Source of the DNA: Acidobacteriota bacterium
Lineage (GTDB): Bacteria > Acidobacteriota > Terriglobia > UBA7540
Reading direction: 5' to 3'
Assembly: GCA_021787735.1 (NCBI GenBank)
Contig: JAJYLL010000013.1
Coordinates: forward strand, 1-64,000
Length of the DNA stretch: 64,000 nucleotides
The position numbers were made by a program, and so were the translations under genes. Positions 51,446 to 54,815 of the stretch are shown here, piece by piece. The notes under the pieces are model-generated. The model saw only the letters and a list, made by a program, of their open reading frames with translations. It was not told the origin of the DNA and did not search any database. The stretch's first letter is position 1. Every line of letters begins with the position of its first letter.

Positions 51446-51587
51446 AGCCGCCGCGGCGCCGATTTTGACTGTCTCCGTCTGCTTGTTCAGCTGCAAAAAA
51501 CTGACCCGCCAGTCAGGCGCGGGCCGGGGGTTCTGCGTCAGCCGTGACGCAAGTCTTCCCGCCCAGTCCGCGGGCCTTCGGTCTCTG

Positions 51588-53036
51588 CTACTTCGGCTGG
51601 GGCAGGAATGGTGAGAGCTTCACGGCGGTGTCCCAGTCCACGCCGCCCGTAGGCTTCAGCCCGTTGGCGGTCTGGAAGGCTTTCAGAGCGTTGAGCGTCA
51701 GAACGTCAACGATTCCATTGGTGGGGCCGTTGTAAACGCCCGCCGCGGCCAGCGCCTGCTGGACCTCTTTCCAGCCGTCCGGTGTGGTGTTGAGCCACGA
51801 TCCGAGCGCGGGGCTCATCGCAGGTGTGGCCCGCAGGTACACGGGCACGGAAGGCACCGGAGGCAGCGACGGCGAGAGTATCGCAGCCGTCAAATAGTCG
51901 AACTTCCCCGCCTGCTGCGGCAAGCCACGCGCCTGCTGGAACCGCTTCAGCGCAGCAATGGCATTCGCGTCCCAACGGGCTGTCGGCAGGGTGCGCAGAT
52001 AGCCCAGGTTCGCCAGCGCCTGCTGGATATCCCGAATCCCCGCGGGCGTGCGCGCGCGCGCCAGCCAGTAGCCGCCGGGCGGCACGGGCCGCATCCTCAA
52101 GAACTTAGCAGGAGCCGGAGCTGGCGTCGGGGGCCGCGGCGGCTCGCGATAGGGGAGGCCGACGACGCTGACGCCATACTCGTAGCCACAGTCTGGCAAG
52201 CAGATACCGTAAAGCACCCTCGTGACGCCGACGGTGCCCCTAGGCCCCATCAAGTCCGCGATCGCGCGCCACGCCGACACGTCCTCTGCCCCCATCTGTG
52301 GCGGGCGCTCTCCATGCGCGGGCATCACCGGAGCAAAGGTTCCTCCAACAGGGGTCAGGGCGACCCGGAAATTGACTCCCGACGCCTGTGCCAACTGCTG
52401 CACGATTAAACCGAACATCTCTGCGGGCCACCGACGCGCCTTGGGGATGGATATCCTCGTGCTGAGGAAATCGGGCTGGGCCACCATTGTCCCTGACTTG
52501 TCACGAGCGTAGATGGGGTAGACCTCCCAGCGCGCACCGTAAGGCATCTCGAGCTTCCGAACCGTGAAGATCTGTCCGCCCTGGTCGGCGAATTGATGGA
52601 GCACATCATGGATGAGCCCTTCTATCCCCTCCTGCGGCCTCATCGTTACCGGCGCGCAACCGAGTGTGTCAGTCTTGCACCGGTAGATGGGCGCCACGCT
52701 CCCAGGCGTCCCCAGCACCTCCCAGTAGCGCACAGTAATTGTCCTGGTCTTGGGGCCCGGGGACGGCGGAACTAGGGGTCTCCCGTGGACTGACCGGTAA
52801 AGCTGGATGTCCTGCGGAGCCACCCATGGCGCGTCCACGTAGTCAATCAGGACGCCATACCTTTGCTCGATCACGTCCATCGCCCTGGCCACGGGCCTGC
52901 CCCCCGTCACCTGGATCGTTTCGAATGTCGGGCCCTCCGTCCCCCCCTGTGCCCGCGCCCGCCCGGCGCAGAGGAAAACAGCAAGAATGCCTGCCGCGAC
53001 CGCCGCACGACTCAACACTATCTTCGTGTCTGTCAT
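51588..53036 (-). CDS. Secreted protein with two C-terminal peptidoglycan-binding-like domains
   Basis: The 482-aa protein has a signal peptide (MTDTKIVLSRAAVAAGILAV...) and an unrecognised N-terminal region of about 300 residues with Cys pairs (CKTDTLGC, CLPDCGYEYG). A Pro-rich hinge (PPRPPTPAPAPA) follows. Two PG_binding_1-like modules end it: IQQALANLGYL...AIAALKRFQQARGL and VQQALAAAGVYNG...LNALKAFQTANGL. It may attach to murein. GGGGGG lies before the ATG at 53036, which overlaps by ATGA the end of the extended upstream reading frame. The two genes appear to form an operon and look richer in G+C than their neighbours, perhaps acquired. Confidence 0.7.
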   Translation of the reverse strand: MTDTKIVLSRAAVAAGILAVFLCAGRARAQGGTEGPTFETIQVTGGRPVARAMDVIEQRYGVLIDYVDAPWVAPQDIQLYRSVHGRPLVPPSPGPKTRTITVRYWEVLGTPGSVAPIYRCKTDTLGCAPVTMRPQEGIEGLIHDVLHQFADQGGQIFTVRKLEMPYGARWEVYPIYARDKSGTMVAQPDFLSTRISIPKARRWPAEMFGLIVQQLAQASGVNFRVALTPVGGTFAPVMPAHGERPPQMGAEDVSAWRAIADLMGPRGTVGVTRVLYGICLPDCGYEYGVSVVGLPYREPPRPPTPAPAPAKFLRMRPVPPGGYWLARARTPAGIRDIQQALANLGYLRTLPTARWDANAIAALKRFQQARGLPQQAGKFDYLTAAILSPSLPPVPSVPVYLRATPAMSPALGSWLNTTPDGWKEVQQALAAAGVYNGPTNGIVDVLTLNALKAFQTANGLKPTGGVDWDTAVKLSPFLPQPK

Positions 53037-53248
53037 TTGCATTTCCCCCCTGTTCTTGGATAGGTCTGGCATGCCGTAGCCTCCTGGCCCGTGCCCGGCG
53101 TAAGGCCCACGATCAAATCTTTTGGCGTGATTTCAGCCGGCGTCTGCGTGTCGGTCATATAAGTAGGCATCGGCCACGTGCGAGAGTCAATGTAGAGCTT
53201 CTGGGGGGTAGTAATCGCGCATGTCTCGCCCTTGGGCCCATAGTAGTC
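53033..53248 (-). other. Open 71-codon extension of the upstream secreted gene
   Basis: After the TAG at 53251-53249 the same frame stays open for 71 codons with normal codon choice (DYYGPKGETCAITTPQKLYI and onward to RTGGKC). It ends with a TGA that overlaps the ATG of the next gene as ATGA. This is best explained as the original C terminus of the preceding gene, now cut off by a nonsense codon, or reached by readthrough. Confidence 0.6.
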
Positions 53249-54472
53249 CTAGTAATCGGTGTCCCACTGGCTGCTCATGCCGATCTTGTCGCCTCCCCAA
53301 GACCCGTTCGGGTCGACGTACCACCCGCCGCCCCCTAATGTGCTTTCGGTTACCTCGGGTTGCGGATCGCCCGGACTGTACCAGCACATGTCCGTCGGCG
53401 CGCCGCCCGACTGCTCGTAAACAAATCTTCCGGCGAAGCCGACGAAGCCGTCCAGGAAGGGGAAGGTACGTCCAAAAACGGCGAGTGTCGGCAGTGTGGA
53501 CAAAGGGGCGGTGACCCACTCATTTGAAAAGGCGGCCGTTTCGACCAGCGGGAGGTCCGTCGCGCTCTTGAACAGCGGCGGCACGCCCCACCGGTAGTAG
53601 GGGCCCTCAGCCGAATCCATGCTGCCATTGAGGAAGTCCCTCGTGGGAACCGGGGGTGTCCCCGGAGTGCATGCGACCCCGTAGTTGAGGCCTTGCGAGG
53701 TGACGTCGCCGGAGCCAAGGACCAGCCACTCGATGCCATTGGGGCTCTGGTTGCCGAAGGCCAAACAAAGTGCGAGGTCGCCATACTGATCAAGCGTCCC
53801 CCACACGTTATACTGTCCCCAGATGTTGTCCACCTCGGAGCCGGTTATCGGCCAAGTGCCGTTGGTTTGGGGCAACTGGTTGAGGGTGAGCGTCATCGTC
53901 TCGCCGCCGTCGTCGTAATTCCACGTCCCCTCCACGTACTCCGGCGCCGACTCCGTTCCTTCCATGTTCGGCGGCGAGTAGGCCGGCCCCGGCGTGTTCA
54001 CCGTCTGGATGGTAAACGTTGCGTTGACCTTGTCGTTACCGCAATAATCGGGGATGTAATTGGGCGGCGAGGCCGGGCAGTTCGCCTCATTAGCGGTGCT
54101 GTCCGAGCCGTAGCTTGGCGAACTGACCACCAGGTTGCCCGAAGCAGCGTCTAACGGATGACGGAACGCAATTTCTGCGTCAGTCCAGAACACGATATCG
54201 GTCACGGCCTCACCGTTAAGTGTGATGCTCGCTCCCGGAGGTACGATGCTCCCTGCCGGCGGGTCGCCAAAGCAGTAGCCCTGAATGTACACCACCGTGA
54301 CGCCGGGCAGGGCAACCTGCGGCGAGACGCTCTCGATGTGCGTCGTGCCCGTAACCGGAGGGTACGTGCAGCAGAGGGGTTCGTAACAGGTACCTTGGGC
54401 AGACAAAGGAAACAGGAATGCAGCGAATGCAAGGAAAAGTAGCAGAGCCGACGCCGAGCGGAATCTGGCCAT
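53249..54472 (-). CDS. Secreted hypothetical protein, apparently truncated by in-frame TAG
   Basis: The 407-aa product has a signal peptide (MARFRSASALLLFLAFAAFL, ending SAQG), a Cys-rich start (CYEPLCCTYPP) and a TIG/IPT-like beta domain at about 45-125 (IESVSPQVALPGVTVVYIQG, GASITLNGEAVTDIVFWTD). A large beta-rich region follows, ending GGWYVDPNGSWGGDKIG. AAGGAGGT precedes the ATG at 54472, an ideal ribosome site. The TAG at 53251-53249 interrupts an otherwise open frame that continues to 53033. No family recognised for the main body; probably an extracellular or outer-surface protein co-expressed with the murein-binding-like protein downstream. Confidence 0.7.
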   Translation of the reverse strand: MARFRSASALLLFLAFAAFLFPLSAQGTCYEPLCCTYPPVTGTTHIESVSPQVALPGVTVVYIQGYCFGDPPAGSIVPPGASITLNGEAVTDIVFWTDAEIAFRHPLDAASGNLVVSSPSYGSDSTANEANCPASPPNYIPDYCGNDKVNATFTIQTVNTPGPAYSPPNMEGTESAPEYVEGTWNYDDGGETMTLTLNQLPQTNGTWPITGSEVDNIWGQYNVWGTLDQYGDLALCLAFGNQSPNGIEWLVLGSGDVTSQGLNYGVACTPGTPPVPTRDFLNGSMDSAEGPYYRWGVPPLFKSATDLPLVETAAFSNEWVTAPLSTLPTLAVFGRTFPFLDGFVGFAGRFVYEQSGGAPTDMCWYSPGDPQPEVTESTLGGGGWYVDPNGSWGGDKIGMSSQWDTDY

Positions 54473-54815
54473 AGCGACCTCCTTTTGAGCATGATCTCTA
54501 TTGGACACCGGCAAGAACCGGTCTCTGTTTCAGTCCGCGACGGCCGTTATAAGCTTGTCGACGTCCCGTTACTACGTCAGTACTTGAATTACTAATACAC
54601 CTGCAAAAAGGGGTCTGTCAAGGGAAAAATCAAGCCCCACCTCTTCAAAAATATCCCCATTGGGCGGTATCTTTCTCCTGGTTTTTCTGTCTCCAATTTT
54701 CCTTGGGGTGGCAGTTGGCCCATTCCAGAAACCGGAAAATGTGGTGCGACGGCTGTACCGACCAGCATTTGAGATTTCCCTTCCAGCCGATATCATCGGA
54801 TAATAGCTCTGGACT
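54473..54815. other. Divergent intergenic region
   Basis: It holds the minus-strand promoter at 54592-54621 for the secreted pair. I saw no convincing plus-strand promoter for lolC/E and no coding frame. Confidence 0.4.
54592..54621 (-). promoter_or_regulatory. Promoter of the secreted-protein pair
   Basis: Minus strand: consensus TTGACA (54621-54616), an 18-base spacer and TATTAG (54597-54592). Leader about 110 bases to the ATG at 54472. Confidence 0.5.

Follow-up and report, generated by a model that had tools for sequence, protein, structure and literature searches.

The analysed window, a stretch of 64,000 nucleotides (positions 1 to 64,000 of contig JAJYLL010000013.1 from an Acidobacteriota bacterium), carries on its minus strand a gene for a secreted protein, here called A, that is interrupted by an in-frame TAG and whose frame continues beyond it into an overlap with the next gene, B. 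This raises the question of whether the TAG is a recent nonsense mutation, an assembly error, or a codon that is read through or recoded, which were the options named by an earlier note on this DNA. The source genome is a 4.87 Mb draft of 184 contigs, the window being one contig. The features concerned are:

53033..54472, minus strand: gene A, encoding a secreted protein (479 residues without the interruption; frame analysis and homologue alignment)
53249..53251, minus strand: in-frame TAG of gene A, codon 408; CAG (Gln) in 4/4 homologues
53036..53248, minus strand: extension after the TAG, 71 sense codons, conserved C-terminal part of A
53033..53036, minus strand: ATGA overlap of the TGA of A (53035-53033) with the ATG of B (53036-53034)
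51588..53036, minus strand: gene B, secreted, two C-terminal peptidoglycan-binding domains (PF01471), ATG in the ATGA overlap
54571..54601 (approximate), minus strand: promoter-like TTGACA-18-TATTAG upstream of A (regular-expression match)
51501..51518, minus strand: intrinsic-terminator-like stem and T run after B

Gene A starts at the ATG 54472-54470 (minus strand), has a signal-peptide-like beginning and is preceded by the Shine-Dalgarno sequence AAAAGGAGGTCGCT. It comprises 407 codons before the TAG and 71 codons after it, and the coordinates that the earlier note had given for the TAG (53251-53249), the open frame and the TGA overlapping the next ATG proved exact. The description of the extension as normal-looking also holds, as its codon score is coding-like (0.130 vs 0.147 for the reading frame before the TAG), the residue-level alignment with homologues carries on across the stop and past it, and dN and dS relative to the closest homologue are equal on both sides (0.233 and 0.466 before the TAG, 0.231 and 0.478 after it). 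All four homologues continue past the TAG by the same length and run into B via an NTGA-type overlap, which supports both the proposed product of about 479 residues and the intact operon junction; none of them ends at the TAG with unrelated sequence downstream.

The residue aligned with the TAG is glutamine, encoded by CAG, in each of these homologues, which implies that the window TAG arose from the ancestral codon by a single transition (CAG>TAG). Judged by eye, distant relatives of the C-terminal domain appear to have Gln or Arg near this position. Truncation at the TAG costs A 72 residues, including the invariant C418, Q424, D429, C468 and C478; Y471 in the same extension is invariant as well. 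Window A thus combines what marks a recent pseudogene, namely a lesion that disrupts the frame relative to homologues and the loss of a conserved part. Most likely, the TAG is a recent nonsense mutation of a gene for a 479-residue secreted protein.

The protein is laid out as a signal peptide, an IPT/TIG-like N-terminal domain, and beta-rich-looking middle and C-terminal domains of no known family. In profile searches, TIG (PF01833) was matched by one of the four homologues (best E 2.4e-5), in a further profile search the G172 gene exceeded the curated cut-off, and the window protein gave no PF01833 match. A profile search of A against the PDB returned nothing, and structure prediction from a four-row alignment was uninformative (pLDDT 33). 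Gene B, which has alternative in-frame starts at 53042 and 53072, matches PF01471 over the curated cut-off in two stretches (E 9e-22), and this match was found in all members of the family; its predicted structure (pLDDT 55) retrieved a peptidoglycan-binding domain and otherwise weak matches only with Foldseek. The promoter-like element upstream of A falls below the threshold of a consensus scan that allows spacers of 16-18 and demands T at the last position, and G001, a genome of the same genus, has TTGACA-18-TACTAG at the same place. A is most likely co-transcribed with its peptidoglycan-binding partner, and the A protein is probably surface-exposed. As a separate observation, B of the window contains a G7 tract on its coding strand just past the signal peptide (52941-52947); only four G/C runs of this length occur in the window, and this tract is a candidate for a second slippage site.

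A search of 200 relatives yielded four further genomes with a full-length A (G001, G172, G190 and G151). Within the genome collection, the three closest homologues belong to draft genomes of Acidobacteria. No further full-length A was found when the two orders involved were searched whole (40 and 95 genomes), in even samples of the class (399 genomes) and the phylum (396), or in a pattern scan of GTDB (84,980 species), and viral contigs and plasmids held no relative. In more distant relatives the similarity is confined to the C-terminal or the TIG part, and those inspected are open frames. Full-length members are few, only five being known, three of them from one genus, with one genome per species. 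Each of these five A genes is broken exactly once; no two lesions share a position, and they are of three kinds:

Window genome (G000): TAG at codon 408
G001 (same genus as the window): +1 C at codon 275, turning a C5 run into C6; the other frame reaches the natural end
G172: TAG at codon 48, where other members have Gln (CAG)
G190: TGA at codon 144, where other members have Cys
G151: TGA at codon 152, in a linker

Base changes, as opposed to homopolymer indels, make up four of the five lesions, and the positions of all five are spread evenly along A (KS P = 0.76), as expected of null mutations and not of a programmed site. The partner gene B is intact in 5/5 genomes.

Could the genomes themselves be at fault? 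In the five genomes, ABC_tran domains showed no stop among the matches listed, and one of 36 TIG domains contained a stop, which was that of the G172 A gene itself. The comparison of the window with the G001 contig covered 15 gene pairs, B included, and all were intact once apparent stops had been traced to antisense ORFs or N-terminal extensions. These control domains and gene pairs are sound, which argues that the assemblies are not error-ridden. A coding-potential scan for other stops open to readthrough was confounded by neighbouring genes that share the frame, and it was excluded from the controls. Based on an upper bound of ~1.6% for the background of broken genes (3 divided by ~190 domains), the probability of finding all four further members broken is ~7e-8, and it is 1e-4 at a background of 10%; this calculation omits the window genome because it had prompted the search.

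The lesions are young. Of all one-step changes in the A genes, 3.8-4.1% create a stop, and since no A gene contains a second one, the neutral divergence accumulated after the first lesion is, on average, limited to ~1%. The A copies are 40-67% identical and keep their frame save for the one lesion, and the two closest of them, in the window and G001, are separated by a dS of 0.47. Together, the missing second stops and this divergence imply that A was constrained until recently and broke late in every lineage. One lesion per gene, no more and no fewer, is the pattern that a favoured first null with neutral evolution after it would leave. In the comparison of the window with G001, A and B have dN/dS values of 0.50 and 0.49, against 0.03-0.16 for 14 other ortholog pairs.

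A TTGAC element lies upstream of A in 5/5 genomes, and in two of them it is followed by a poly-G tract between the -35 and -10 elements:

G151 C43:6270-6280 (L005, L011 region): 11 G, in TTGACA-AGCACCGC-G11-TACCCT, spacer 19
G190 C187:13557-13563: 7 G, in TTGACG-TCGCAGTT-G7-TATGCT, spacer 15

These two promoters share the layout TTGAC-N9-Gn-TANNCTGC, G190 having four G fewer. The G11 tract is the only G/C run of at least 8 in 390 kb (five contigs), where 0.2 runs of at least 11 are expected under a first-order Markov model and runs of at least 7 are eight times rarer than this model predicts; the G7 tract is the longest G/C run of its contig. It should be noted that the tract was spotted after the fact and that the A promoters of the window, G001 and G172 have no poly-G tract. 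A homopolymer in the promoter spacer is a classical site of transcriptional phase variation. Judging from their sequence, the tracts in G151 and G190 would switch transcription of A by strand slippage, and the homologous promoters of these two species differ by G7 versus G11, a hint at variation in repeat length. A literature search for homopolymer phase variation in Acidobacteria found nothing on the subject, judged by title and abstract.

Based on these findings, we favour, with a probability of about 0.62, the reading that the TAG is a real and recent OFF allele and that A is a fast-evolving, contingency-like surface-protein gene that is recurrently inactivated beside B. According to this model, A would be exposed at the cell surface, and the peptidoglycan-binding B would either anchor it or serve it. 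Selection would intermittently favour cells without A, so that OFF states keep rising; phages or predators that use A may be the selective agent, which is a guess. Transcription would be switched by promoter poly-G in two lineages; each of the five coding frames carries a single null lesion, placed at random, and the window TAG would be the local OFF allele. We regard as doubtful a stronger version in which A is the contingency locus of a mobile two-gene surface cassette and natural populations almost always have it OFF, through poly-G switching of the promoter as well as coding nulls that keep recurring; ON alleles would then be a rare minority or be regained by exchange among cells.

Unlikely, yet deserving serious weight, is plain decay, in which a dispensable A is dying in each sampled lineage without switching or selection and the TAG is a neutral nonsense mutation. 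It would account for the high dN/dS of A, for the absence of A from most relatives and for G002, which has lost A and half of B. However, copies that are 40-67% identical and carry a single lesion speak for long constraint and very recent breakage in 5/5 cases, which would be rare if neutral decay had set in at unrelated times; in addition, the adjacent B stays intact, and the poly-G promoters are left unexplained. A sequence or assembly error at 53249-53251 is very improbable. A single base in a draft genome decides the matter there, but the same gene is broken in all five genomes and no other checked gene is, so that five separate errors in five assemblies would be needed; moreover, base changes predominate among the lesions, unlike the homopolymer indels usual for errors. 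Of the three options raised by the earlier note, the nonsense mutation gains support from the glutamine codons of the homologues, recoding loses it, and error is unlikely as a general cause.

The lesions might also be tolerated, with near-cognate suppression and slippage on the C6 run providing low-level readthrough and little full-length A. The frames do look constrained beyond the lesions, and a TAG at a Gln and a TGA at a Cys position could be filled by near-cognate tRNAs; low-level readthrough has been argued for many bacterial in-frame stops, and reversible TAG/CAG changes have been described (Belinky et al. 2021, PMC7918605). We nevertheless consider this improbable, as two types of stop and a frameshift occur at five unrelated sites without common context, no RNA structure was found around the window TAG (z 0.94 and -0.02), TAG terminates 6/15 neighbouring genes, and the number of tolerated lesions should follow a Poisson distribution (none, one, two) instead of being one in each gene. 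Hardly credible is a recoding of TAG, be it genome-wide or specific to the gene, by a suppressor tRNA or pyrrolysine. The conserved downstream frame would agree with it, but homologues have CAG at the site and other members carry TGA or a frameshift, and TAG serves as terminator on the same contig, for example of clpC, which ends in TAG in both species. A suppressor tRNA, which the earlier note suggested looking for, was not found by a tRNA pattern search of the whole genome, as none of its three amber-anticodon matches is a tRNA according to ARAGORN. The differing kinds and places of the stops, the use of TAG by neighbouring genes, the failure to find a CUA tRNA and the lack of structure together argue against recoding, and neither a recoding site nor its context is conserved among homologues, as it would be for programmed readthrough or frameshifting. 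The downstream folds in L009 and L011 are moderately stable (z -2.5 and -2.0) but unrelated. Selenocysteine was considered for the TGA of G190, which lies in a Cys column, and was rejected because the downstream fold is not unusual (z 0.41).

The favoured reading of A as a recurrently inactivated surface-protein gene can be compared with known systems. Phase-variable surface-protein genes can carry homopolymer tracts in promoter spacer and coding region, and porA, opc and fetA of Neisseria are examples. Helicobacter pylori sabA has a poly-T tract in its promoter and a CT repeat in its coding region (PMC2715451). A resembles these genes in encoding a secreted or surface protein, in its promoter-region homopolymer and in being OFF in the coding frame in many sequenced strains. 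It differs from them in that its OFF states are scattered stops and one additional C instead of a coding-frame repeat, that poly-G is present in 2/5 genomes only and switching is putative, and that its hosts are environmental Acidobacteria. The single in-frame stop (CAG>TAG) in a frame that is otherwise maintained at dN/dS <1 recalls the cases of Belinky et al. 2021 (PMC7918605), whose stops, however, are common to related genomes at the same site, whereas those of A are unique to each genome and affect the whole family. Likewise, homologues with disrupted frames in several genomes are found in the frame-transition pseudogene clusters of Antonov et al. 2013 (PMC3711429), but these are defined by a conserved position of the disruption, and the lesions of A differ in position and kind.

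Our data suggest that A is a cell-surface protein that these Acidobacteria turn off or lose time and again. Every known A is freshly broken while B is intact and the genomes are sound, which is evidence of strong, repeated selection against a secreted protein; in these uncultured bacteria, it is probably exerted by phages or predators. If the mostly-OFF version were true, a phylum whose bacteria live freely in soil and mines would possess a phase-variable surface antigen. Where a draft genome shows a single in-frame stop, the whole family should be checked before recoding, decay or error is called.

The two genes form a small cassette that lies at a different site in each genome and is most likely gained and lost as a unit. 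The extent common to the window and G001 reaches from the promoter to the end of B:

51535..54634, minus strand: A-B cassette, 3.1 kb

The neighbourhoods of A-B differ in 5/5 genomes; by eye, the pair is flanked by lysS and a lolC-like gene in the window and lies next to serS in G001. Between these two genomes, dS is 0.47 for A and 0.37 for B, lower than in the other pairs (0.60-1.86), which together with the different neighbourhoods points to cassette transfer. A search for terminal repeats of the cassette found none that was convincing. The genus of the window has a third species, G002, in which B is reduced to its last 196 residues (L054 7942-8529), A and the front of B being gone. Second copies of B without an adjacent A are present in G172 (C125:20851-22338) and G190 (C337:3058-4404, L055). 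On the same G172 contig, C125:35495-43552 comprises three tandem genes of ~890 codons, whose relatives in G001 and G151 are single genes.
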